DNA from: Tetraselmis striata
Lineage: Eukaryota; Chlorophyta; Chlorodendrophyceae; Chlorodendrales; Chlorodendraceae
Direction: 5' to 3'
Length of the DNA stretch: 64,000 nt
NCBI GenBank assembly: GCA_006384855.1
Contig: VCJN01000391.1
Span: 1-64,000, forward strand
The notes under the pieces are model-generated. The model had not been told where the DNA came from. It searched no databases and saw only the letters and a program-made list of their open reading frames with translations. Below are positions 1,899-36,539 of the stretch, in pieces. The position numbers were made by a program, and so were the translations under genes. Each line of letters starts with the position of its first letter. The first letter of the stretch is position 1.

Positions 1899-4106
1899 GT
1901 GCATGAGCGCACCTACTCGTCCCGAGCGGTTGAACCTAGAGGCGGCATCCCATGTCAACTAGAGGCGGGACAAGCAGCCGATGTTAGCGCTGCTAGAGTA
2001 TGTGGATACGCGGCATTTGTGAAAATTCCGGATGATCAGCGCAGCAAAATGGATGTTAAGGCATTCAAAGGGGTAATGGTCGGCTATGCTGAGGACTCAA
2101 TTGGATACAAGGTGTACAATCCCACCACTGGCAGCATCATCAACACGGTACATGTGCGCTTTGACGAGCACACACCTAGATTTGGGGGGTCCGCACCATT
2201 TGCGGCGGTGCGTCTGGAATCTGAAGAGGACTCCGATGTGGGATCCGATGTGCCAGTGCTCTCGGATGCATCCCCATATGAGTTAGATTCAGTGGGGGAT
2301 ACGGAGCCAACACTTCGGAGGCACCTGGAGATGCTGCACCTGACAGAACGGTGCGAGATTGGACGCCCGCCTACGCGATTCTGCGATCAGTTTCAAGCTA
2401 TGCTATCTGATGTTGGGGACGACAAAGCACTGATTGCTGAGGCACACCTGTCAAATGGCAATGTGGTTGCAGTCTTGGCCGCCAGTGACGTCCCTGAACC
2501 GGCCACCTACAAAGAGGCAGTCAGTGGTCCCAACGCCAAGGAGTGGTTGCAAGGCACAGCCAAAGAACACAGTGCTCAAGTGGCTAATGGAACATGGGAC
2601 GTAGATCTGGTGGCACTTCCACCCGACAGAAAAACGGTCAACTGCAAGTGGGTGTTTAAAGTCAAACCTGACTCAAATGGCGAGGTTGCAAAATTCAAAG
2701 CCAGACTTGTGGCTAAGGGTTGCAGTCAGAAGGCCGGTATTGACTTTACAAAGACATTCTCACATGTGATTCGACAGGCCAGTCTCCGGGTTATGCTCAC
2801 CATCGCTGCTGCCCTAGACATGGAACTATACCAACTAGATGTGGACACGGCGTTCCTTCATTCCGATTTGGATGAAGATATATTCATGCGCCAACCTGAG
2901 GGATTCCATGATGGCACAAAGCGGGTACTCAGACTGAGAAAGTCGTTGTATGGCCTCAACCAATCCCCTCGGACTTGGAACAAACTGATCAGTGGGTGGC
3001 TGCTACAGCCCGGGTGGAAGCAGTGCAGTAAAGATCCATGTCTGTACTACTGCTTTCAAGATGGAGTATTTCTATGTTGGGGTTAGGTGTACGTTGATGA
3101 TATGCCCTTTGCGTCGACCTCTGTGGAGTGGGCTACCCACTTCAAGCAGCAGATCAGTCATCGCCTCAAAATTACCGTCACGGATTTGCAGTGGCTTCTG
3201 GGCATGCACATGGCCAGGGGCAGAGCCAACCGGACTATCACCGTGGATCAGTCGAAATACATTGGCGACATTCTTCGTCAGTTTGGAATGGAGGACTGCT
3301 ACCCCTCTGCACTCCACATGGACACTGACTACAAGAATCACCTTCCTGATTCAGCGCCGCCGTCACTTGCACTTGGAGTGGAGGGTCGTGTAACTTACCG
3401 GTCCTTGATGGCCAGCCTCATGTATGTCGGCTGCAACACCAGTCATGACATCAGTGCTGCTCTCAGCATTCTGGGACAGGTGCAGAAAGCACCATGTCAG
3501 ATGCACCCGACTGCTCTAAAAAAGGTCCCCCGTTATCTCAAAGGCACGCAGTCACATGGCCTCACCTTGGGGGGGTCACTGGCCACTCTGCAGCTCACAT
3601 GCTATGCAAATGCTGACCATGCTGGGGATTTGGAATCTCGCCGCTCCAGGTATGGCTACCTCTTCTTTCTAGGTGATCACGGCGCTGCTAGCTGGAAATT
3701 CAGACTTCAGCCAATCGTGTCCACCTCTACTTGTGAGGCAGAATATTACTCTCTCAGCCTCGCTGTGGAGGATGCCCTACATCTCCGCCAACTGGTGGGA
3801 GAGCTGCTCGATCGGGATACAACCAGCGTGTCAATCGAGCCGGTCTACATCCATCAAGACAATCAAAGCACCATCAAATACTGTCACAATTCCATCGTCA
3901 GTGACAGGACTGAGCACATCGACATCATATATCATTTTGTCAAAGAAAGAATTCTCTGGGGCACAATCCAGATCGGATATCTGCCCACATCTGAGATGGT
4001 TGCAAACATGCTCATCAAACCACTTCCCAGGGAGGCCGTGCACAGACATGCGCGCAAGGCTCTGGGTTGGGGCGCTGCAGCATTGAGTGGGGGTGTTGAC
4101 AACTGA
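1899..4106 (+). pseudogene. Copia reverse transcriptase / RNase H, interrupted by one TAG
   Basis: The start is arbitrary, the first codon of an open stretch. Copia RT landmarks follow in order: KWVFKVK, FKARLVAKG, LYQLDVDTAFLHSDLDE, and KSLYGLNQSPRTWN. An in-frame TAG at 3084-3086 sits immediately before the catalytic VYVDD (3087-3101). The frame then continues to TAA-free RNase H, with TSTCEAEYYSLS, HQDNQSTIKY and RTEHIDI…FVKERI, the usual copia RNase H end. Apart from the TAG, about 735 codons are open. That suggests a fairly young insertion compared with the gypsy fossil at 51.7 kb. Confidence 0.92.
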
Positions 4107-16650: not shown

Positions 16651-16837
16651 ACAGCCACCACCGGCTCGCCTGCCATCTTCCATCTCGCTGCCTTCGGCAG
16701 CACCCTCCCGTTTCCGGCTCCGCCTCCACATTTCCCTCCTCTTTCGTTGCGCCTCCGCAGCGCCATAAAGTGGCGCTTCTTCCGGCGTGTCGTGGTAAAA
16801 TAGCCTTCGCACCCTCTTTGGCAAAACCAGACTCGCT
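16651..16837 (+). repeat. Diverged terminal block related to the 28-kb tyrosine-recombinase element
   Basis: Inverted relative to 28000-28170 but clearly related at both ends. One end has CCTGCCATCTTCCA followed by a small hairpin (16687-16701). The other has GTAAAATAGCCTTCGC … TTGGCAAAACCAGACTC. The middle is diverged. This is probably the 3' end of a second, older element of the same family. Confidence 0.65.
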
Positions 16838-17295
16838 TGCATATGTATGAAATTTAGCACACGGCGAATACTCGTACGAGCACGTCCGAAGGCTCCGTAC
16901 GCTTTACAACTAGGCGCGGCGCGCGCTGCGGGGCGCGCAATCCAAGTTGCGCTGATGATATTTGTTCTTAATAATAACTAGTATAGGCAGTGAGGGGCCC
17001 CATTTGCAAAAGGTGTGACTCGCTTACATTGGTAGGAAAACAAGCCATGGGGCCGAGCAATCTGCAATGAGAAAGGGAGGTTGGGCGGGCGCGTAAGCTG
17101 TTAAGCTAGCGCAAAGGCAGAAGATGGGCCCCCGTCGATTCTCCGGAGAGTCATATAGCAGGGCTGGCTGGGCTGGCGCGTGCGCCGCTGGTCATCGGCG
17201 TTGCTTAGACATTGCGGCGTTGCTAGCGGAATACGAAGCGGCCGATCGCCGGGTGTAATTCAAACCTCTATCTTGCCAGTATGACCATTCATTTG
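16838..17295. other. Intergenic region between element remnants
   Basis: No coding or RNA gene seen. Confidence 0.5.
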
Positions 17296-17427
17296 GTTTA
17301 TCTCACTGCGCGACGGGATAGCCCTAGCGCGTCGCCCGTAGCCCGCATGTTTTCGGGCGGGGCTTGTCAGGACCACGACTTGCCTCCACGGCGGCCGGTT
17401 TACCCTGCCTTCCATCGAGCGCACCAC
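17296..17427 (+). repeat. Left direct repeat of the DIRS-type element
   Basis: Matches 20623-20780 at its start, centre and end (GTTTATCTCA…, GCCCGTAGCCCGCATGT…, TGCCTCCA, CCATCGAGCGCACCAC), with insertions between. Followed shortly by a C run at 17513-17533. Confidence 0.7.
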
Positions 17428-17987
17428 GGCAAAGTCGCGACAATTTGTTTTGCCCGGCATGGTGCCTGTCATCCGCCATCGTACCGTAGTGTACTACGGT
17501 GAGCGTAGCCTCCCCCCCCCCCCCCCCCCCCCGGAAAAAAAACAAACCGTGGGAAAACCCGGTAGGATTTTCGTGGTTGATGGCTAACTACTACACGCAA
17601 CCGAGCTGCCGATTACTCGCCCAACGCGAGGAGAGGACGGAGCCGCAGCGCTTCCCCACTCAGCGGAACAAGGTCCAAGACCTTCAAACATTGTCGACCA
17701 ACAGTAATCCATGGCCGCCCCTCGTCCCGTGTGGGCATGGCTCGACTTGCACTTATAGCCCCTACTCAGCGTAAGTGCCGAGATGCGCACCGGTTGGGGC
17801 GCATGCCAACGCATGCCCCGTGTCGGCTAGTGCACATGTGAGTACAAAGTCACACTACATTGCTAGTGGCCAAGCCAACGCCCAGTGGCACTTGGCTACT
17901 CCCACGCCGTGGCATTCTACTCCGCCGCGCACCGTGCGTGGATCCTGACGCCGACCTCGAGAGGGGCGGCACAGCGACAGAGCGCTC

Positions 17988-18420
17988 TTGAAAGCAATAC
18001 AAAAGATCCGAGCATGTCATATGTGTGCGGGCAGCCGCGTATACAGCCATATACCCGGTACGTACACGGGCAGCCGAGTACCGGTACAACGCGCTATACA
18101 GGTATCGATCACGGGCAGCCGAGTATCGGTACAAAAACACCTAACATTCCATCCCGTCCCGTCCATGGACGAACAATTTGATTTCTGGGTGGTAAGGGAA
18201 TCGAACCAATGACCTCTTGGATTGCAGCCAAGGCTCCGAAACCAGTGAAAACATTACAAAAGATCCGAGCATAATGTCATATATATATGCGGGCATCTGC
18301 GTATATAACTATACATCCGATACACGGCGGGCAGCCGAGTACCGGTATATCGCGTTGTACGGACTTCGCGATACCGTATCGATATCGATCACGGGCAGCT
18401 AAGCATCGGTACAGCGCAGG
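17988..18420 (+). repeat. Two diverged tandem units with internal GGGCAGCCGAGTACCGGTA repeats
   Basis: Each unit begins TACAAAAGATCCGAGCAT (about 17999 and 18254) and contains two or three copies of a motif close to CACGGGCAGCCGAGTACCGG. Unit length is about 255 bases. It lies between the left direct repeat and the RT of the DIRS-type element. Confidence 0.7.
18185..18232 (-). tRNA. tRNA-like 3' half (Cys-GCA-like), remnant
   Basis: On the minus strand the sequence shows an anticodon arm TTGG-CTGCAAT-CCAA (anticodon GCA), a T-loop GGTTCGATTCC and a 3' acceptor half ending TACCACCCA. The T-stem is imperfect and the 5' half (acceptor strand and D-arm) is absent. It is therefore not a working tRNA. 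Read on the plus strand it is complementary to a tRNA 3' end and could be a relic primer-binding sequence or a tRNA-derived insert. Confidence 0.5.
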
Positions 18421-18639
18421 TACAATTATCAGCTTTGCTCGCTCCACCTCGCGACATCCATCGCGCCGATTCCTCTACCCCCTCCCCCCCCCCTCCCCCC
18501 CCCTTATAATGTATACGACCTCGCGTCCGTCGTAATATTTTGGCAACCCGCTTGTGCGAATCGCATTGTTATAAAACCGTATCTCTGGAGGTGTACGCGT
18601 CCCGTTGTTGGACGGGCTCGCCCCCTTCTTTTCATCATG

Positions 18640-20590
18640 GGGGTGTCTGTGGAGGATGCTACTCCGGTCGAGCTAAAGCTTATGGACGGTGAATTGGTTC
18701 GCTTCCTTGCCGTTGGGGCATGGGAGCGAGGCCACTGCGCAAAATGGGTGTCCCGGTTGTTCTTGGTTATTATTAAGCCTGTAACAACCGATAAATAATG
18801 ATGACTCATCATTGACCTCCGCCTCTCGAACCGCTACGACTACAAGACATGCGATCTTTCGTTCGATGGAGACGCTTTTGCATTTGCGTAATTGAGGCTT
18901 ATTGTAATGGTGGCTACTGCACATTTGCGCAATTTGGCGCGCCATGGGGATTACATGTGCAGATGGACATGCATCATGGGTTTTACCCGGTTGGAATCGC
19001 CCCTAGGGACATGAGCTTTTTCACGGTCCGTTACCGCGGCACTCCGTACCGTCTGGCTGACCTTCCCGGCCATGGGAAGGTCTCTGTCCCCTTCTTACTT
19101 CTGTGAGTCCAGCAACGTCATCACCATGACATTGCGTCGTAACCGTACTGAAATAGACAACACACCATTCCCCCGCCACCAATTTGGTTTGCTCACGTCG
19201 CCCTACACGGAAGATTCCTTGTTTCTAGCTCAGACTCAGGCTGAGACCATATGGCAGCGCGACTACTTCGAACGCCGCCTCTCGGGTTTTGGCTTGTTGC
19301 GCAACCCCATCAACAAAGGCGAATGGGAGCCCACCAAGAAGCCAATGTGCATGATGTCAGAAATTGACACGTCGGGGTGGCATTTTTTTCGTGCGCCAGC
19401 TGAGAAACTTTCCGCCATTGCTCGTACGGCGAAACGCCTGATCCAGTGTGCAAAACGCGACCCCCGGTGGCGCATGCTCGCGAGTTGGCCGCCCTTGCGG
19501 GCAAATGCCATCACCCGTGGAGGTTTCTACCTCCGCAAGCTGCACGATGGGCTCAATAAGACTCGTGAATCTTGGTCCGGCCGCGTCAAGCTCACCCATT
19601 ATATCTTGAACGTCACCTGCAATGGTGAGTGGGTGTGCCCACCCAACACAACGGCAAACATACTGTCGAAACCGGTTTTTTGCACGTCGACATTTCGTCG
19701 TAGTACGATTGGGGTGCCGGTATGAATAAACATCATAATGCTCGGGGTTTGTGGTGCGACGATGACCGATATCTGCGAAGGTTACCCTGAAAAAGCTCAA
19801 AGCCTTCTGTCTGGCTATTGAGTCCTTTGTCCCCATGCTCCATAACCGTCACATCCGCTTGCATGAGGATAACCAAGCAACGTCAAAGCGGTCCTCGCCA
19901 ACCTCATCTCTCACCTATCATCACTTGTCGGTGTCATCATCAACCTCGGTCACCTCTCGCTCCCCGAGCCTCATGCTTGAGCTGCTGAAGACTTGATACC
20001 TCATGGACACGCACGGTGTTACCCCGTCCTTGCGCTACATCCGTTCCGCGGCAAATTTCTATGATGACAGCCTCAGTCGCGAGATTGATTGTGACGATTG
20101 GTGGTTCAACCCGCGCCGATATTCGCCTCGCTCACTGGTAAGTGGGGCGCCTGCAGCACCACCGACCACTTCGCGACGTCCGAAAACGCCCTTCTGCCCC
20201 GCTACAACGCCCATTGGCGTGACCCGCGGTGCTGCGAGGCCATCGATGACATGCATGCGCCTCTCCGACGTTACATGGCGTTGCAAACGTAACTTGTGTA
20301 ACCCCTTGGAACTTCATTGGAAATTTTGTCTCTAAACCGGAGTCCAGTGGTGCCTCAGCCATCGCTATTGTTCCCTATTTGCCTGACAAAGCTTGGTACC
20401 CGCTCCTCTCTGAGATGTGCTCCGACATGCGCTCTTGGGACTACGCCGCGCCACGTAGTCCTGGCAGTATTGGCGACCGCCTTCCCGTTGGCGCGCCCCA
20501 CTGGCATGTCGTTGCCTTCAACATTCCCGCCTCCGCCCCCCGCCCGTGGCCTGCTGCACCCGCCATTGTTTATTTGGCAGCCAGACGTTG
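18640..20590 (+). pseudogene. DIRS-class reverse transcriptase / RNase H, multiply broken
   Basis: RT landmarks appear in order across frames. GAWERGHCAKWVSRLFLV begins the domain, then LIIDLRLSNR after a cluster of stops at about 18796, then HHGFYPVGIAPRDMSFFTVRY, then MGRSLSPSYF in the next frame. RNase H-like parts follow: FYLRKLHDGLNK, WSGRVKLTH, IRLHEDNQA, DTHGVTPSLRYIRSAANFY and FATSENALLPRYNA. This combination, especially the WSGRVKL and THGVTPSLRYIRS-type segments, is characteristic of DIRS elements rather than copia, gypsy or LINEs. At least five stops or frameshifts. Confidence 0.8.
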
Positions 20591-20622
20591 CTCGTGAATG
20601 TTCTAATCTAGTTTTTGTTTTT

Positions 20623-20780
20623 GTTTATCTCATTGCACCGGATATTTTTGGCGCGGCGCCCGTAGCCCGCATGTGCGCGCGTATGTTTACGGGAGGTGGT
20701 CAGGGCGACCACCTGCCTCCAAGGTGACCGACCGGTCGACTCTTGTTTGCGGTGGCACGCTCCGCCATCGAGCGCACCAC
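20623..20780 (+). repeat. Right direct repeat of the DIRS-type element
   Basis: Partner of 17296-17427. It directly abuts a C run (20783-20806). Confidence 0.7.
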
Positions 20781-21225
20781 AGCCCCCCCCCCCCCCCCCC
20801 CCCCCCCTCTCCCCGTGGGCATGTTTGCTTTCAAATTCCTGATAATAACACTATGTAACCAGACGTAGGATTCTTCAGCAGACCAGATGTTCCTTGTGAA
20901 ATATCAGCAATACGCGCCATCAAGGCGCCACGTAGCAATACTGCACAACTCCCCGCTCCTATATCGCCGCCGCCTTATCCTGTTGTTCTTCATAGTACGT
21001 TGTATTATGTATATTTCCCATATCGTTCAGCGCGCGGGCGCCGGGGCGTACCCGTCCTGGTACCGCGCGGGCGCCGGCGCGGCGGCGGCCACTACGACGA
21101 AGCGCGGCGGGGTCCGCTTGCGTGGCTGCCCTGTCTCACCTCCGTTCTCTCCGCCGCGTCTCCCTCCGACACAGCCTGCGCTCCCCACAACCCGAGGGCC
21201 CATCACAATCCACACCGCCTGAAAA

Positions 21226-27567: not shown

Positions 27568-28005
27568 AGCGCTACCTGTCGCCTGCCCCTCGGGCAAAAC
27601 GTCACCCCTGGCAGTAGGACCCGTAGTAAGTCCAGGCCGATTCTGTGGAGGGAACAGGACGTATGCTATCCCGCTGTCCAGAGTCTGCTGCTTCCAGCTT
27701 CAGTCTGATCTGGGCGTGTTTCGCCAAGTGGCGTCGCTGGACGGACTGGTATGTGGCAGAGGGTGGTAGCCTCTGGCCCGCCGTGGGTGGTGGGTGGTCT
27801 TGTCTCGGCTTGCACGCTTCCGCCGCGGCGACCGCGAGGTGTGCGCGACGCGACGAAAGCAGCAGCGCCCGCCATACCGCATCAGCATAACGTTCAGTCG
27901 TTGTACCTGGGTACTGCTTTGCATGTACTTATTCATATATGATGCAAAATAAAATTCAGCGCGCGATGCGCTTTGCAGCTGTCCCGTGCGCTGACATCGT
28001 CATAT
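27227..28005. other. Intergenic region with long C and G runs
   Basis: The 5' flank of the DYRK gene. A C-rich run lies at about 27311-27335 and a G run of about 32 bases at 27534-27565. The GC-rich open frames crossing them are artefacts of the runs. Confidence 0.6.
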
Positions 28006-28031
28006 TTCAAGTTGAGTCTGGTTTTGCCAAA
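28006..28031 (-). repeat. Terminal motif B2 of element B
   Basis: On minus this reads TGGCAAAACCAGACTC followed by AACTTGAAA. It is identical over about 24 bases to 28308-28332 and related to the end of the orphan block at 16.8 kb. Confidence 0.7.
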
Positions 28032-28121
28032 AAGGTCGCGCAGGCTGTTTTACACGGTCAAGAGCCGAAATTGGCAGGATGGTTTAGCGAAAGCGTGGAG
28101 GGAAAACGGAGTCAGGGGGGG

Positions 28122-28309
28122 CGCTGCGTGGAACGCAGCGAAAACTGGAAGATGGCAGGCTCAGCTGTTATGGCTGCTTTTATGTCTACTCGTGCTGCAC
28201 CCAAAAAGGGCGCAACAACAGGTGCCTAGTTCCCGTACCACTGAGCAGCACTTGTAGCTGAAAAGCGGTTAGGTCAAGGGAGGAAACACCATAAACTAGT
28301 TTAGATCAT
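28122..28309 (-). repeat. 188-bp direct repeat A2 of element B
   Basis: Differs from 31045-31232 at only four positions by eye. It contains a perfect 7-bp stem hairpin at 28122-28140 (CGCTGCG/CGCAGCG). Confidence 0.93.
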
Positions 28310-28386
28310 TTCAAGTTGAGTCTGGTTTTGCCAGTCATGAGCTAACGGAGAGAGCGGTGGATTGACGGAAAAGGGGTAGCGCCAGG

Positions 28387-29421
28387 TCATGAAGGAGGCA
28401 CCGGGAAGGCCACCGCTGCGGAGTCCTGTTGGAGTTGGAAGTGGCGGAGGGGGGCGATGTGGCCAAAGAAGAACCATGCGCCAGGTGAAGGAAGAACGTC
28501 GGGGTCGATGTAGTCTAGAACGCCGTCGGAGTTAGTGGCCCAGCCGCCTTGGTAGCGAATGTGGGATAATGGTACCCCGATGGCGTTGGCCGCAGACGCT
28601 GCTCCCTTGCGAAGGCTGTGTGAGGTCCAGGAAGTGCCGGCGGGAGGGGCAGCACCGACAAGACGGACGGCTGTAGACAGCCAATCCGACATTGTAGCGG
28701 CAGTCCAAGGTTTTGACTGCTCGCTCGGGACGACCGCCCAGAGGTTTGTTTCAGCCAAGGCAACAGTAACTAGGGGGACAGACTGTACCGTGTCGATGAA
28801 GTGGTGCAGGAGACGTGCGACTCGGGGGTGCTCGGCCACCGGAAGGAGAAGTACGCGCAGGTCGTCGCGCCCCCGTCGGCCAGCGCGGCCCTTCTCGCGG
28901 TACACCTGCAGGGTAATGTTGTAATTGTCGACATGCACATCCCGCACTCGGCAGGAGACGCCAGTAAGTCCTCTGGCGAAGAACATCAAGTTGACAACCG
29001 AGGCCACGAGGGCTCGGAAGTCGTGTTGGTACTATGGGGTGGGAGCAGACACAATCAGCTCGGCCTTTGTGACGAAGCGGTAAGCTACATCGACAGGCAG
29101 AGGAACTCGCAAAGGGGCTGTTTCCAGACGGCGCTGCCGCAGCATCAACCCACGCCTTGCCGAAGTGAGGTGTAGACTGTCCTTGGCGATGGGGTCGAGG
29201 TTGTGCAGCTCGAAGAACGTGTTGATTGCAGACATGTAAGGTTGCATGGACTTAGCTCCAATGTGCCCTCGCTCACCAATCCAAGCAACGTACCGAACGA
29301 CAGTAGCCGTGGTCGCCTCCAGAGGGCTGATGTTCTCGGAGTCGTGGCAGAACTCCGCGAATTGAGACAGTCTGCCGGCGTAGCTCTTGAGTGTCTGAGC
29401 GGTGAGGGAGCTGGAGAGCAT
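28387..29421 (-). pseudogene. Tyrosine recombinase of element B, one in-frame TAG
   Basis: 345 codons in one frame from ATG 29421 to stop 28387, broken only by TAG at 29032-29034. The N-terminal SAM-like part has LSQFAEFC…VRYVAWIGERGHIGAKSMQPYMSAIN (several helices). The catalytic part carries the H-x-x-R box (SHSLRKGAASAANAIG), then QGGW, and the nucleophile in LDYIDP. Such recombinases integrate circular cDNA in DIRS-like retrotransposons and circular DNA in Cryptons. All catalytic residues visible to me are kept, so the TAG is the main defect. Confidence 0.85.
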
Positions 29422-29515
29422 GTCGAGTGTCCGTTGTCCTAACTCGTCTGAGCCGAAAGCCTCGTGCAGTCGAGATCGTAGTGAAGCAGCCCAGGGGGCG
29501 ACAGCTTCGGGCTCG

Positions 29516-30016
29516 TCAATTACGTAAGTGCGTCGGTTTTACCGACAGAGTTCCAGAGGTGCGACTATTGTTCGCAAAGTACTCGGCAGCAGCGGTTAGG
29601 TTCCCGGCGGCTGGCCGGTAGTTGCTGGACGGGTTTGCAGTAGCACCAGTATGGGTTTGCGGGGCAAGGTTCATGTAGGAGGGCCGCCCTGCGCGCCCTT
29701 CGCGCTCGTGGCGCCTGCCACGCGCGTAACGTACACGCGCGAAGCTTGGTCGTTGCGAACCAGTTGTAACACGCAGTGTAACAACCGTCGGACGCATTGA
29801 GGGAATGGTACGGGAAGCGGTTGGTTGAGCCGCCATGTGCAGGTGTGCGGATGGTTGAGCCGCACTCGGTTGTAGCTGTAAGAAGCGCCGCACCGAGGAA
29901 GGTCTAAATGAAGTCTGTAAGGTGGGGGGGTCATGCCCTAACACGGGGCGCTCATCTCGCCGTTGAGCTGCAAGGGTGCGTCTTGCGGCGGCGGTCACCG
30001 AAAGGTGGCCTCGCAA
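29516..30016 (-). CDS. Short ORF between gag and recombinase of element B
   Basis: 166 codons, rich in Ser, Pro, Arg and Thr, with no recognised domain. It starts 37 bases after the gag stop. It sits where RT would be expected in a DIRS element but has none of the RT motifs. It may be a linker, an accessory protein, or not translated. Confidence 0.35.
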   Translation of the reverse strand: MRGHLSVTAAARRTLAAQRRDERPVLGHDPPTLQTSFRPSSVRRFLQLQPSAAQPSAHLHMAAQPTASRTIPSMRPTVVTLRVTTGSQRPSFARVRYARGRRHEREGRAGRPSYMNLAPQTHTGATANPSSNYRPAAGNLTAAAEYFANNSRTSGTLSVKPTHLRN

Positions 30017-30052
30017 AGCTCCAGCAGCTCCGACGAAAGGCGGCCCACACCG

Positions 30053-30964
30053 TCACTCGTGCTCACCTTCGCGGCCACGCCCGCGTCCACCGCCACGTCC
30101 TCGTCCACGTCCGCGACCTGCAGCTGCTGCCTCCACCCGAGCAGTAGCGGTTGCTTTGGCGCTGCTGGCCACAGTCGCCTCGAAGACGCGACGCTCGTAG
30201 TCCCTCATGAGGTCCCCAAAAATCGCGGAACCCAGATGCTCAGAAGCAGGCTGAAAGTGCTGAGCTCGCAGCACGTCCATAACACCTTGGTCACCGTGCA
30301 CACGCTTGACCTCATTAAGCCTCCGCAGGAAGGCCAAACGAAAGCGAAACGCCTTGTCGATGGCTTCAGCGTGGTTCCGAGCTCTCGCGAGGTAGGGGGT
30401 GAAGTCTTGATTGGCAGCATGGACGTAAGGCAGCAGCTCGTCAAGCGCCACAAAAAGTGCGGCCATGTGGGCACCGAAACACGACATCCATAAATACTCC
30501 TCTTGGGCCGGCAGACGCCGGTCATCCTGCTTGAGGTACTCGTTCGTTAGGTCGGTGCTAAGGGGGAAGAGTCCAAGCACTCGGCTGACCGGTCGAACGG
30601 CCTCGTAACCAGACTCTGCTCTCTGCAGTAGTTCTGGCACCGCGAGGTAGTCATCCTCGTCACTCACGGATTTTGCACCGACACGGCCGCTCTGGGCTAG
30701 CTCTAGCAAGTCGGGGCGCTCAGCGGCTCCCCCGATGCCTGTCGGCTGTCCCGAGACGCGCTGCCCGGAACCGGGACCATGCGCTCCTTCTCCATCAACG
30801 ACGCGCTCACGAGCCGTCGTCAATTGGGCCATCGCTGTAGCAAGCTCCCGCGGCAATGTAGACTGGGCCTTCACGTCTGCGTTCAGCGACTCGAGCGTCG
30901 GCTCAACGACGGGTTCTTCTCCATCTGGCATGGTAACGCACGGACATACGGATGAGAATATCAC
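30053..30964 (-). CDS. Gag-like protein of element B
   Basis: 303 codons, intact. A helical central region (about residues 95-250, with EEYLWMSCFGAHMAALFVAL) is followed by a C-terminal arginine-glycine tail (RGRGRGRG…), which suits nucleic-acid binding. DIRS-type elements carry a gag ORF in this position, often ending in a basic or Cys-His part. There is no zinc knuckle. The start could also be the Met at 30931 (MPDGEEPVV). Because the repeats at both ends match 98% and this frame is open, the copy looks recent. Confidence 0.6.
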   Translation of the reverse strand: MIFSSVCPCVTMPDGEEPVVEPTLESLNADVKAQSTLPRELATAMAQLTTARERVVDGEGAHGPGSGQRVSGQPTGIGGAAERPDLLELAQSGRVGAKSVSDEDDYLAVPELLQRAESGYEAVRPVSRVLGLFPLSTDLTNEYLKQDDRRLPAQEEYLWMSCFGAHMAALFVALDELLPYVHAANQDFTPYLARARNHAEAIDKAFRFRLAFLRRLNEVKRVHGDQGVMDVLRAQHFQPASEHLGSAIFGDLMRDYERRVFEATVASSAKATATARVEAAAAGRGRGRGRGGGRGRGREGEHE

Positions 30965-31044
30965 ACTCGGGTGGTGAGCCGGGTGTGGTCTTGAACAACC
31001 TAGGGTGACCTTGCTCGCAACAGGTTACGAGACAGTTTTAACAT

Positions 31045-31232
31045 CGCTGCGTGGAACGCAGCGAAAACTGGAAGATTGCAGGCTCAGCTGTTGTGGCTAC
31101 TTTTATGTCTACTCGTGCTGCACCCAAAAAGGGCGCAACAACAGGTGCCTAGTTCCCGTACCACTGAGCAGCACTTGTAGCTGAAAAGCGGTTAGGTCAA
31201 GGGAGGAAACCCCATAAACTAGTTTAGATCAT
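31045..31232 (-). repeat. 188-bp direct repeat A1 of element B
   Basis: Partner of 28122-28309, same orientation, four differences. The same hairpin lies at 31045-31063. Confidence 0.93.
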
Positions 31233-31400
31233 ACAGCGCCTTCCCTCCGGATTTCCCTCTACCTAGATTTCTATCTAGATTTTATGTACGGGGTGGGGAT
31301 TTCTTGAATGATGCGGCGAGCCCAGGGGATCATATATAGCGGCTACTACTTGGTAGTAATTGCATTTTTTGTTTAAGATTAGATTTGTTAGTTTATATTG
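31233..31400. other. Spacer between elements B and C
   Basis: About 170 bases, AT-richer than its surroundings (CTAGATTTCTATCTAGATTT near 31263). It separates two divergently oriented elements. Confidence 0.5.
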
Positions 31401-31686
31401 TTTAGAGCTGTGTTCTTGGGGTTTCCCATTCCGCCCTCCCTGCACCTAGGGTATGTGGGGTCGACGCCACCGGCTGACCGCGATCTCGGCGCCACGCCGG
31501 TAATCGACCACGGGCAGTCCTAGTGCTTCCGCACTGCGAAGCCAATGTACGGCACTTTGCTTGCCGCCCGCGGCAAAACAGCGGTCACCCCCGCCGTACC
31601 CATCAAATCTTATAAAACCATCATCGTCCGCTAGACTACTGGACCACTCTCTAAGTGTCATGGGGGCCTCCTATCCGCACAACACC
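31401..31686 (+). repeat. Left direct repeat of element C
   Basis: Shares with 36044-36308, in order, TTTAGAG, GGGGTTTCC, CCTCCCTGCACCTAGGGTAT, GATCTCGGCGCCA, CGGCAAAA, CAGCGGTCACCCCC, GTACCCATCAAAT, CATCATCGTCCGC, and GCACAAC. Confidence 0.88.
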
Positions 31687-31691
31687 AACTC

Positions 31692-33690
31692 GTGTTTCGG
31701 GCCGTGCAGGCCATCGGAAACGGTACTAAACCTTCAACCCTCCGCTCTCGTTGCCACTACATGACCAGCTCAAGCCAAGGCCCTTCTTTTCTTTCTTCCC
31801 CACTACGCGACTCCCTTCCCGACGACCCCTTTCCTATGTCTGGCAGCGGCTCACATGCTAGCCCCAAGAGGGCCGACGCCGGCAAGGCGGCGGCTGTCGG
31901 GAGCGTCGAGACAACGGCTACTGCGCAAAACTCCATGGAGGTGGCGCGTCGTGAGGCGGTAGCCACAAGAATGAAGCAACTCATCCAAGAGCGGCTCTCC
32001 ATCTTCTCCACCACTCAAGATACTCCTATGCCGCCGGTTGTCACCGGTTAAGAGGACGCCAGCATTCCGGGCGGGAACGAGTCCCGCGCCGGTGGTCAAG
32101 ACCGGAACGTCCGTGCGCCCTTCGCTCCCTCGAGCGAACCACATTATACCTTGGAAAACCGCCCTCGCTACGGCTCTGCCCGGTTTCGAGAACGGGGTGC
32201 CTCCCGACAGTCTGCGACGCCCGGGGCTCTTCCCCATCGCCCTTGACCGTGTGCTCGAGAACCTGCTTGGTATGCCTCGCCTCCGGCCGGCAGTGGACGA
32301 GTACTATACCAAGCCGCGTGCTACGGGGCTTTCATCGCCGGCTCGGCTATCGAGCTGCGTAAGCTACTGGCAGCGGCATGCGTCACATGCGGATTAACGC
32401 CGGCCTTCGGGCAGCGGCTCGAGGCCATCGTCCACAACTAGGAGGCCAGCATCGATGACGGTAACTGGTTCCGCATGGCTACTTACCTCCGCAAGCATTG
32501 AGATACGCAGATGCACTACGCGGCGACACTTTCGCCCCCGACGTCGTACGGGAGCGCTACCTCCGCCCCGGTACTGACAACCTGGGGTTGCCCGAGCTCT
32601 CTGAGCTGCCTGCTGGAGCTCTACAAGGACAGCGTCTACGACGCCAACATCGCGAGGGCCGCGAAAACCACCGCTCGCCACGCTTCGGCGGCGCCTTCCG
32701 GCGGAACGACCGCGCCCGGGACGGCAACGGCAGTAGTGAGCCGCGAAAACTTCAAAACTACGCGTCCGGGGCGCGAGACGGTGGCGCCACGAGCCACTAC
32801 CTTCGCCAAGGGCGCCACCAAGGACTATGGTAAGGGCATGGCGAAAGCTGAGCCCCCCACGATGGACAAGGCCGAATGATGGGGTGCTCCGCCATGCCGA
32901 CTCCATGCAACTGCGTTTCGAGGACACGTCTCCGGGCGCACCTTCCAAACCACGCTACACTGGAGTCGTCGTCATGAGCGGGTCTCCCTCACCGCTAACC
33001 CTCCTGCGCGAGCCGTCACCCTCCCCCTACCCTCGCCGGGGGAAGCCCCTTCGGCTCTATTATGTTCTTCCATACCACGATGAGTCTACACCAACTCCTC
33101 CCTTCCGGCGCGGCCCCCCCGACCAACGCTAAACCTCTCTGCCCGTCGCCCACGCAGCGGGGTCTCACGGACAGCTAGACGAGCCAACTTCTCACTTTTC
33201 AGCCGGCCCTTAACGCCATGCGAAGTACTGCGTATGTACAAAATCCGGGCGAGCCGGCGCACCTACTGACATTGGCAGCGTGATTCTCCTGCGAAACGGT
33301 GGACCGTCCGAGGACCGGACGACCCACCACTAGGCCAACTGCCGGCTAGCGCCCACAATGGCGTGAAGAGCAGGCCCTCCAAGAGGACACCACTACAACC
33401 TGCCACCATTGACACCGCCAGATCTGAGGAGCAACATGACGCCGGGGCCGGCACTTTCCTGCCCGCGCTGCGGGGCGGCAGAGCACAACAACCAACGATC
33501 CGCCGCACGGTCGCAACTGCAAAGAAATCGCGTGCACCCAACTCCCACCTGCAACCCGCGGCCACATACGTGTATTGCAACGCCCATCCCAGCTGCTCCT
33601 AACCGGCCTCCCCGCCGGCACGGACGATGCCGCCTACGTGCGTGGCCCTACTGTTCGGTGACCTGGTGGCCCAACATCAAGCGATAAATG
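31692..33690 (+). pseudogene. Gag-like region of element C, frameshifted
   Basis: Successive open pieces in different phases: 31692-32051, 32038-32397, 32498-32879, and 33409-33687. The first contains a charged helical stretch (MEVARREAVATRMKQLIQ). The third is basic and Gly/Asn-rich. The last carries CPRCGAAEH, like the start of a zinc knuckle. None shows RT motifs. It is assigned to gag by position only. Confidence 0.5.
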
Positions 33691-34863
33691 AAGAGTCGCG
33701 CGGCCGCACTGTGACGAATCATGCACTCGTTCGCGGCCGAACTTGCCCGACTCAAAGCGGAGTCGCATCGCCTGCGAAGCCCCCAACGCCACTCGATCCG
33801 GCTCGATAAGCGCCTCGCCAGCCGCTCTCGGCAGTCAAGGGAGCAGCACATGGCAAGCACAATAAGGAGAAGCAGCCTAGGGGTCGTATGGTAGCCGCTC
33901 ATGCGGCACCACCCGCAACCGCAGCAGGATCAAGCCGCGCCTATCGGTCACTCGCGACTCCGACAGCGAGTGGGAGACCGACGACGAAACATCCCACAAA
34001 TCCGGCAGCTCACACCAGTAACGCCCGCGCGATTCGCCGCCGCGACAAGCCGACCAGCAGGAGACCCCAGAAAACCGGCCGCTACTAAGCCTTGCGACCG
34101 ATGCCGCCACGATGCTATACTTTCACGCAATTAGGACAATACCGCCCGAAACGCGGGACATCCCATCGCTGATTATCGCAGCAGTTCTCCACAGACATAT
34201 ATAACAATCCCTTCTCTTGTGAAGAGGGCATCGCAACCCCCGCCAAAATCTACTAGCCGGCTCAGAGGTGGACAAATACTGAGCGACAATTAGCTATTCA
34301 GGTCCGCCCCCCTCCCCCATCTCACGTTAGGAGATGTAGGCGGGACGCCTGTGGCTGCCTAAGCCTACCTGTTGAGCTATGAATGGGATTGGCTTGACTT
34401 AGGTAGGGACAACAATAGGGCGCTGATGTCCTAGCTACATCATGCCGTTGGAAGGTGGAGGGGCTAGGACACACATGAGGACGGCCGGTAGCTTGAGCTG
34501 TAATTACACCTAGTGTTCCCCAGCATGCTTAGAAATAGCATGCCCTAAGAACAATTCAGTCTGAGCCAGTGGCCGCAGCATACTAGCATTTGTAATCAAT
34601 TTCAAGTTCAATAGACGAGCCAACTGCTCACGCGACGCTCGCTACGAGATCAGCGGCTGCAGTACCCTGCCGGCATGGCATCAACTTCGTGCCGCACTTG
34701 GTCCCGTCGTCGTCACTAGGCGAGCACCACCTTCAAGCCCGGCCGCAGCGTACGGAGCGTTCCGGCGCATCCACCGCACCACGAAGACACCTACCTACTT
34801 TATCGCCAACGCCGAAGCGAAGCCCCCCGGGAGCGAGCTCATGCGAGGCAGCACCGAGGCTCT

Positions 34864-36048
34864 ATGCGGCGCGGACGACTGGGGCGCCAAGGTGCTCGAC
34901 CCGCTAACTACCTCGCTCACGGCCAGCACCGCGCCTACTCCAACTACGAAAGCATGATTCACCTCTTCGCCGAGTTTCTCATCGATGAGGGAGGCATCTC
35001 CCCCCTAGACTGCACCGAGTCTACCCGCGTCCGCTACCTCGCCTGGATTGCGGAGCGCGGCAACATCGGCGCTGGCTCTCTGCAACCCTACCTTTCGGCC
35101 ATCAATACTTCCTTCGTCACACCGGTCTGGATGACGCCCCGGCCACCGGCCCGGCCATCGGCGACATGTATGAAGCGCGCGCTTCATCAAATCCGTCAGC
35201 TCAAGACTAGCGAGGAGCTACGGTGCGCCCCCTTCCCTGCGACGTCATCACCGACATCCTCGACGACCTTGCTACCCTTCCCATGACCAGCCCCGGCTAC
35301 GGCACCATTCTCCGCGAGGGCGCCGCGGTATGCTTAGCTTTTATGTTTTACTCCCGTGGTGAGTCCACCGTCTATTGCCGATGACTCAACGACATGGTCG
35401 TGGCCGACACCCACAACATCACCATCTCCGTCAATAACGGCGAGAAGGGAGGACATCGCAAGCGTCAAGACAGGTTCAAGCCTCTACTCCAACTCCCCGC
35501 CACCGCCGTGCCCGCGTGGACAACCCTTCTCCGCCGCTTCGCATCATCGCGCGTACCACGACGCAACGTTCCGGGCTGCCTCCTCCGCCAAGCAACTACC
35601 TGGCCGATGATGGGCGCTCCCCTGCGAGAACGCTACCCCGCCCCTTACGAGGAACGCCTCCACCCTCGGCGTCTGGCTCAAACGGGCCGTCGGCCGCAGC
35701 AATCAACCCCCCCCCCCCCCCCCCTCCCGACGGGTTCGTTCGGACCTCGCACTCCTTACGGAAGGGCACGGCATCGGGCGCAAACGCAGCAGGTGTGCCC
35801 CTTGACAAAATCCGCGACTGATGCGGTTGGGCCCGCAATTCTGCAGTAATCAACGACAACATCGACCCGACAACGCTTCCTACCCGCGCCACCGCGCTTC
35901 TTTTCGGCTGGCTCCCCCCCTCCCCCCCGTGGTCCTTTGCAATCTTCTCGACAACGCCCCCGCTCCATCGGGCGCCGCCCCGCCCTCCGGTTGTCCGGAA
36001 GACCGAGGTGGCTTATCCTTCCTCCCTACCTCCCTTCGAAATCTTTAG
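34864..36048 (+). pseudogene. Tyrosine recombinase of element C, inactivated
   Basis: The N-terminal part (34864-35286) matches element B: FAEFLIDEGGISPLD, VRYLAWIAERGNIGAGS, LQPYLSAIN. After frameshifts (including 35394-35600) the catalytic H-x-x-R box appears as TSHSLRKGTASGANAAG near 35740-35800. A TGA at 35819-35821 is followed by CGW and then NDNIDP, where element B has LDYIDP. The codon at 35858-35860 is AAC (Asn) in place of the catalytic Tyr, so even a repaired frame would lack the nucleophile. Confidence 0.82.
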
Positions 36049-36308
36049 AGTGTTACTGGGGTTTCCTTTTCCCTCCCTGCACCTAGGGTATGCGGGGGTC
36101 GACACGAGCTGCCCGTGATCTCGGCGCCAAGCCTGTAATCGAGTGCGGGGAGTCTTGGTGCTTCATCACTGAGAAGCCGATGTACAACACTTTGCGTGCC
36201 GCACGCGGCAAAAGCAGCGGTCACCCCCGTACCCATCAAATTTTATAAATCCATCATCGTCCGCGCTCGACTGAACCACTCTCTTAGTTTTGAGCTGGCC
36301 TCCTGCCT
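36044..36308 (+). repeat. Right direct repeat of element C
   Basis: Partner of 31401-31686. Confidence 0.88.
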
Positions 36309-36539
36309 GCACAACCCGCCCTCCATCCCTCCCTTTTTGTGGCTCTTTGCCGCAAGTCCCCCGCCCTTTCCGCGTAACTAAGCATGTACACTTTTCGGCC
36401 AATCCTCCCTGCCTACCTACTTTCGAAACTTATTTTAGCGACTGTTGTCGTCAGCGAGATACATATAAACGATCGTAGAGACACATATAGCGACAGTTTC
36501 TTCGTTATCTTATTCAATATTTATATTAAATAAGAGTAT

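Follow-up and report, generated by a model that had tools for sequence, protein, structure and literature searches.

Tyrosine-recombinase (YR) retrotransposons have, to our knowledge, been described as single elements holding Gag, reverse transcriptase (RT)–RNaseH and YR, and we know of little experimental support for the way in which they integrate. In TOC3 of green algae one element holds all of the genes. Cryptons are DNA YR elements that resemble the elements described below in having a YR without RT, and differ from them in that the latter have split direct repeats and a gag-like open reading frame (ORF; a label given by position). Here we analyse a stretch of 64,000 nucleotides from the chlorophyte Tetraselmis striata (contig VCJN01000391.1, positions 1 to 64,000; hereafter the window), which contains a complete gag–YR element, element B, and a decayed member of a separate family of RT-only elements. 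These are best read as a two-component YR retrotransposon, in which the family of element B is the gag–recombinase half and elements of about 3.05 kb encoding RT, RNaseH and a Dam-like domain are the other half; we put the probability of this reading at roughly 0.75. The genes that TOC3 unites are thus divided here between two element families.

The literature comparisons in this article draw on portions of the cited sources. PAT elements have the gene set gag-RT-RH-MT-YR, with RNase H (RH) and a methyltransferase (MT) (PMC4157794), and PAT-like elements occur in relatives of Chlamydomonas (PMC8226300). In its gene content the Tetraselmis pair looks like a TOC3-type PAT element cut into two parts, and it shares with the TOC3-type elements split direct repeats in the order A1-B1-A2-B2 and a YR that points the same way as its companion genes (PMC4157794). 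Two further likenesses are tentative: a methyltransferase-like match alongside RT-RNaseH that stays below its cut-off, and the lack of a zinc-finger Pfam match in a protein that is only a putative Gag. The repeats of both halves fit PAT and Ngaro alike. As here, Ngaro elements follow the repeat plan A1-[ORFs]-B1A2B2 and contain a Gag-like ORF as well as a YR bearing the HxxR motif (PMC8547959); unlike the present pair, they carry RT-RH and YR in one element and, as far as the source describes them, no methyltransferase (PMC4157794), whereas the RT partner here has a weak Dam-like match. The nearest precedent that we have met for use in trans between retrotransposons comes from long terminal repeat (LTR) elements of barley, where BARE2 cannot express Gag and yet its RNA is packaged (PMC3735527). 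BARE1 and BARE2 are alike in showing trans-complementation between retrotransposon families, but the dependence is one-way, on a Gag-making partner, whereas here neither half appears complete. SIRE of trypanosomes is likewise a non-autonomous derivative of a split-repeat YR element, VIPER, but it is a truncated VIPER made of VIPER ends and not one of a pair of coding halves (PMC6681497). Full-text literature searches, with the original TOC1 and TOC3 papers lying outside their scope, brought to light no description of such a gag–YR and RT-only pair.

The gag–YR family

The repeat plan of element B is that of the split direct repeats of PAT/Ngaro-type retrotransposons, A1 and A2 being 98% and B1 and B2 100% identical. 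Pfam searches with the two pieces from the window recover Phage_int_SAM_1 in the YR (E 2.8e-6, above its cut-off) and Phage_integrase (7.7e-5, 23 bits, below the cut-off of 27.1), and no RT match. The best PDB match of ORF2, taken from the relative L042, is Cre, a weak match (E 0.0013) in which HxxR, W and Y are aligned. The YR frame of the window copy has a single in-frame stop (29032-29034); the N-terminal part of ORF2 and the YR, which lie in different frames in the window, form one continuous ORF of 553 codons in other copies, L042 and L043 among them. The gag label rests on position and an RG-rich tail.

The genome search covered 224 Mb in 2903 contigs, and copy counts are lower bounds from best-scoring matches. 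Near-identical loci were found on two contigs each (L027/L028, L053/L054 and C1006/C1208), which suggests that the assembly retains both haplotypes of some regions and that the copy numbers are somewhat too high. The YR of element B has at least 108 matches at 88-100% identity (108 of 6876 first-look candidates scored), the majority of those listed with an open frame of 500-580 codons, and its gag has at least 134 (134 of 4763 scored). In all 12 copies common to both lists gag is separated from YR by 515-531 bp, which leaves no room for an RT between them; in six copies retrieved together with wide flanks the alignment to element B shows no inserted RT, and gag lies within the 1.5-kb flank of 27 of 29 YR loci. 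An earlier note on this DNA, made from the window's letters alone, had described a gag–YR element with direct repeats and no RT and had argued that the RT was not lost by a local deletion. For element B, which belongs to a large family beyond the window, the first statement is confirmed and the second supported, and RT between gag and YR, the arrangement that the note had named as evidence to the contrary if present in most relatives, was seen in none of the copies compared. In view of the equal closeness of gag and YR in the 12 copies and of the conserved YR, we reject the reading of element B as a deletion derivative.

Both genes have been under purifying selection, and the proteins were therefore functional during the spread of the family. 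The ratio of nonsynonymous to synonymous rates (dN/dS) of the YR is 0.15 over 276 pairs from 24 equal-length copies (6 of 30 copies were left out for unequal length), with 860 of 1283 differences at third codon positions. For gag, dN/dS is 0.23 over 171 pairs from 19 copies; 27 of 29 loci were matched, and 8 were left out whose match fell below 250 aa in one frame. Among seven gag–YR copies compared, the A1-B1-A2-B2 set is complete in element B, L041 and L042; the A pair is seen in L038, L040 and L043 and lost in L039.

A Pfam scan for other YR genes (150 of 1091 candidates scored) gave seven matches, three of which are gag–YR copies, while the remaining four loci lie on three bacterial-looking contigs. 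Outside such contigs, the sole recombinases met belong to the families of element B and of its neighbour in the window, element C, and it is the elements of the B family that bear a site matching that of the RT-only elements described below. The four loci (L001-L004, on C1804, C2009 and C396) are integrase-family genes amid long overlapping frames in bacterial-looking surroundings, which suggests that these are bacterial contigs within the assembly. Scans of IMG/VR with the RT and with ORF2 found no relatives.

The RT-only family

The RT piece of the window has at least 150 genome relatives (150 of 1477 candidates scored), and the decayed window element is 73-79% identical in nucleotides over long stretches to an intact copy at L056. 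The latter is 3051 bp long and consists of A1 (180 bp), one 763-codon ORF, B1 (28 bp), A2 and B2, with A1 identical to A2 and B1 to B2 (both 100%). Its open frame starts about 265 bp past A1 and its stop codon stands directly before B1, so that neither gag nor YR would fit in. The protein matches RVT_1 (8.2e-17) and RT_RNaseH (9.2e-6) in Pfam; the match to Dam is weak (E 0.0062, 16.7 bits against a cut-off of 28.1), and an NPPW motif is discernible by eye.

At least 59 near full-length copies are present at 93-100% identity (59 of 4787 candidates scored). For 43 of them the matches listed include an RT-type B1-A2 junction, in 39 cases 17 bp past the ORF match, again leaving no room for a YR; the distances in the other four are 79, 366, 5635 and 5645 bp. 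Pairwise dN/dS of the RT ranges from 0.10 to 0.68 (21 pairs from 7 copies). Of four RT loci compared with themselves, L053, L056 and L057 have A1-B1-A2-B2, and L051 has the B pair and no direct A pair. The RT-only elements thus have no recombinase of their own, yet near-identical copies are numerous and the repeats are intact in those inspected, so that the family needs a YR; without a recombinase acting in trans it is hard to explain.

No fused gag-RT-YR element was found among the copies examined, which are best-scoring matches and hence a non-exhaustive sample of the genome. Several candidates were rejected. Of the two loci with a junction about 5.6 kb past the RT, on C1006 and C1208, the one on C1208 is an RT element into which unrelated repeats, and no YR, have been inserted, and the one on C1006 looks like the same locus; the pairs on C292 and C395 proved to be separate neighbouring elements.

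A shared junction and hybrid joins

What the two families have in common is the circle junction, about 52 bp in which the end of B meets the start of A. Between L042 (gag–YR) and L056 (RT-only) 44 of 53 alignment columns are alike, with an alignment score of 33 where the best of 5000 shuffles scored 6, and the 27 bp at the start of A1 in element B match the A repeat of L056 at 25 of 27 positions. Over their other ~155 bp the A repeats of the same two copies score -16 (shuffle mean -18.4, sd 5.8, 500 shuffles); being no more alike than shuffles, they are unrelated outside the junction. Nor did same-strand blastn at E 0.01 find any match between the two element types beyond the junction. The junction is the putative recombinase site, at which a tyrosine recombinase is expected to bind and cut; its outer arms (GGCAAACC... 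and ...GGTTTC) resemble inverted arms by eye.

A pattern for both A types with at most two mismatches occurs at 3614 places in the genome and at none in the reversed control. The first 100 places comprise 11 RT-type and 89 gag–YR-type sites, and of 30 same-strand gaps below 12 kb between consecutive sites 25 measure 2753-2949 bp and none 4-8 kb. These data bear on the possibility that a complete PAT/TOC-type element (gag-RT-RH-MT-YR), extant or recent, gave rise to both types as non-autonomous derivatives and mobilises them in trans. The two halves together do make up the PAT gene set (PMC4157794), and the genome sample is not exhaustive, as the scored fractions of YR, gag and RT candidates given above indicate. 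We nevertheless regard this explanation as unlikely: among the copies examined there is no fused element and among the first 100 sites there are no gaps of the size in question, neither type is a simple deletion of one parent, given how the A repeats diverge beyond the junction, and all three proteins are under purifying selection, which is unusual for deletion derivatives.

If one recombinase serves both element types, joins of the B of one to the A of the other should exist. Three such hybrid loci, base-exact and covering both orders, emerged from two genome searches. At L067 (C2695) an end-to-end RT element stops exactly at the start of a gag–YR A1 (RT-B2|gagYR-A1). At L066 (C1267) the B2 of an RT element ends exactly where a solo A-B2 unit from the gag–YR family (919-1224) begins; this unit resembles the solo AB repeats of Ngaro (PMC8547959). 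At L068 (C165) the B2 of an older gag–YR element, 77% identical to B, abuts an RT A1. The first search gave 99 matches, 2 of them hybrids and 97 ordinary RT junctions. In the second, the match on C1417 (L069) was rejected as an ordinary RT junction variant and the other, on C165, is the real hybrid just described. By a rough estimate, which assumes about 200 RT and 1600 gag–YR elements, about 0.001 exact head-to-tail abutments are expected by chance. That one recombinase acts on both element types is well supported.

The same joins speak against one-way parasitism, according to which the gag–YR family exploits an RT to which it is unrelated, with the likeness of the junctions a by-product of a common ancestry of the ends. 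The ratio of 89 gag–YR-type to 11 RT-type sites is in keeping with such a relationship, but the hybrids join RT-only sites to gag–YR sites, and the RT-only family, with many near-identical copies and no recombinase of its own, needs a YR; we consider one-way parasitism highly improbable.

Integration

L042 lies in a repeat that is found uninterrupted elsewhere: its joined flanks match at least 40 places (40 of 246 candidates scored), all of which exceed the query by a single base. Two of these empty sites, L071 and L072, have the same sequence and run across the insertion point without any duplication apart from one shared A. L042 was therefore inserted without target duplication, the mark of YR integration, and the insertion carries the full A1-ORFs-B1-A2-B2 set. 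The target is a high-copy repeat, in which a 258-codon open frame ends 76 bp before the insertion.

The earlier note had also entertained that these elements move as DNA, that is, by Crypton-like excision and integration of a circle with no need of RT. They encode a recombinase, no RT was found in the gag–YR element by Pfam, and contigs C2200 and C1388 each contain three gag copies spaced 2917-2918 bp apart in head-to-tail gag–YR arrays, a spacing that fits the integration of A-ORF-B circles. Such arrays are as expected of circles recombining at the junction or of unequal exchange. Against movement as DNA, the insertion at L042 keeps A2-B2, which excision across the internal junction would, so the argument runs, have lost, and it is not obvious what a conserved gag-like ORF would do in such movement. 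DNA movement is accordingly disfavoured, and we rate it as very improbable.

A probable two-component retrotransposon

The repeat plan and the complete repeat set of the resolved insertion lead us to infer that the gag–YR elements use the RT of the partner family in trans. This strengthens the suggestion of the earlier note that RT is borrowed in trans, since the RT belongs to a separate family without gag or YR and with nearly the same site; what changes is the direction, as the dependence looks mutual. In the mechanism that we propose, the RNAs of both halves would be made, the Gag of the gag–YR element would package both, and the RT of the RT-only element would copy both into DNA. The internal B1-A2 repeat may serve to complete the ends, which is the general model for split repeats. 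Finally, the Cre-like recombinase of the gag–YR element would integrate both circles at the shared junction, without target duplication.

Taken as one YR retrotransposon of DIRS order, the pair has RT and RNase H in the partner element only, and no copy examined unites all genes. Both halves bear nearly the same docking site and the genes seem to be divided between them, so that neither would be able to move alone. In its strongest form, the two-component reading becomes that of an obligate two-segment retrotransposon, reminiscent of a segmented virus, in which neither half is autonomous, one site is shared and the genome may hold no complete version; we favour this form slightly.

Several points weigh against the two-component reading. 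There is no direct sign that the RT copies gag–YR RNA, and same-strand blastn (E 0.01) revealed no common packaging or priming signal beyond the junction. The identity of Gag lacks profile support, with nothing meaningful in Pfam, and a single-sequence fold of the gag-like protein has low confidence (pLDDT 46.6). On the RT side, 16 of 59 copies have no junction among the matches listed, some pairs show weaker constraint (dN/dS up to 0.68), and an empty-site search for L056 returned only its own halves and one partial match at 86%. The hybrid joins number three loci, read from the assembly only. The excess of gag–YR-type over RT-type A sites fits unequal parasitism too, and sampling through best-scoring matches leaves room for a rare complete gag-RT-YR element.

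If the two-component reading is true, this is a natural two-component retrotransposon whose halves are actively copied and selectively maintained while sharing only a recombinase site, and it lets one ask how trans-complementation stays stable against parasites. The ~52-bp junction and the hybrids are a ready substrate for the study of YR retrotransposon integration.

Element C and features of the window

Element C is an older, decayed and distant relative of element B. It follows the repeat plan of element B, with A repeats that are 80% and B repeats that are 81% identical to each other, and its frames are broken. Compared with the B family, the recombinase of the window copy shows 58-60% identity over two short stretches; in a fuller C-related copy, L058, the recombinase shows 38-50% and the gag 33-42% identity. 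Direct repeats of its own and a related recombinase had been noted before and are borne out, in an old and decayed element that ends at about 36428 and not at 36308. A gag-like ORF had been assigned to it as well; the window copy has no gag match to element B at E 1e-3, and a C-type gag is known through L058. The 1.4-kb insertion in element C has no similarity to RT, ORF2 or gag, and the possibility of an RT hidden there was rejected. No RT partner for family C was found; the one candidate read, L073, was rejected as a divergent partner, having proved to be no more than a decayed member of the RT-only family described above.

Table 1. Positions of the elements and their parts in the window
Feature	Position	Strand	Remarks
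Element B, complete gag–YR element, A1-gag-YR-B1-A2-B2	28004..31232	-	3229 bp
Element B, A1 repeat, 188 bp	31045..31232	-	
Element B, gag-like ORF from first ATG, 293 aa, RG-rich tail	30056..30934	-	purifying selection among copies
Element B, ORF2 N-terminal part	29516..30052	-	different frame in window copy
Element B, tyrosine recombinase (YR)	28387..29538	-	
Element B, B1 repeat, 26 bp	28308..28333	-	with A2 start, circle junction and putative recombinase site
Element B, A2 repeat	28122..28309	-	
Element B, B2 repeat	28004..28029	-	
Element C, older decayed gag–YR element	31401..36428	+	1.4-kb insertion at 33196-34611
Element C, A1 repeat	31401..31683	+	
Element C, recombinase remnant, N-terminal part	34720..35286	+	
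Element C, recombinase remnant, TSHSLRKG motif	35438..35821	+	
Element C, B1 repeat	36010..36041	+	
Element C, A2 repeat	36044..36315	+	
Element C, B2 repeat	36397..36428	+	
Decayed RT-only element, RT-RNaseH-Dam family, own split direct repeats	17288..20902	+	
RT-only element, A2 repeat	20598..20783	+	
RT-only element, B2 repeat	20875..20902	+	

About 450 bp to the left of the RT-only element of the window lies a 40-bp remnant (16795-16834) that is 87.5% like the B2 end of the gag–YR family. The window also holds a chloroplast-type S16 exon, in keeping with a photosynthetic eukaryote, probably a green alga; its best match is the chloroplast S16 chain 28jw (2.1e-32, against 4e-19 for the next).

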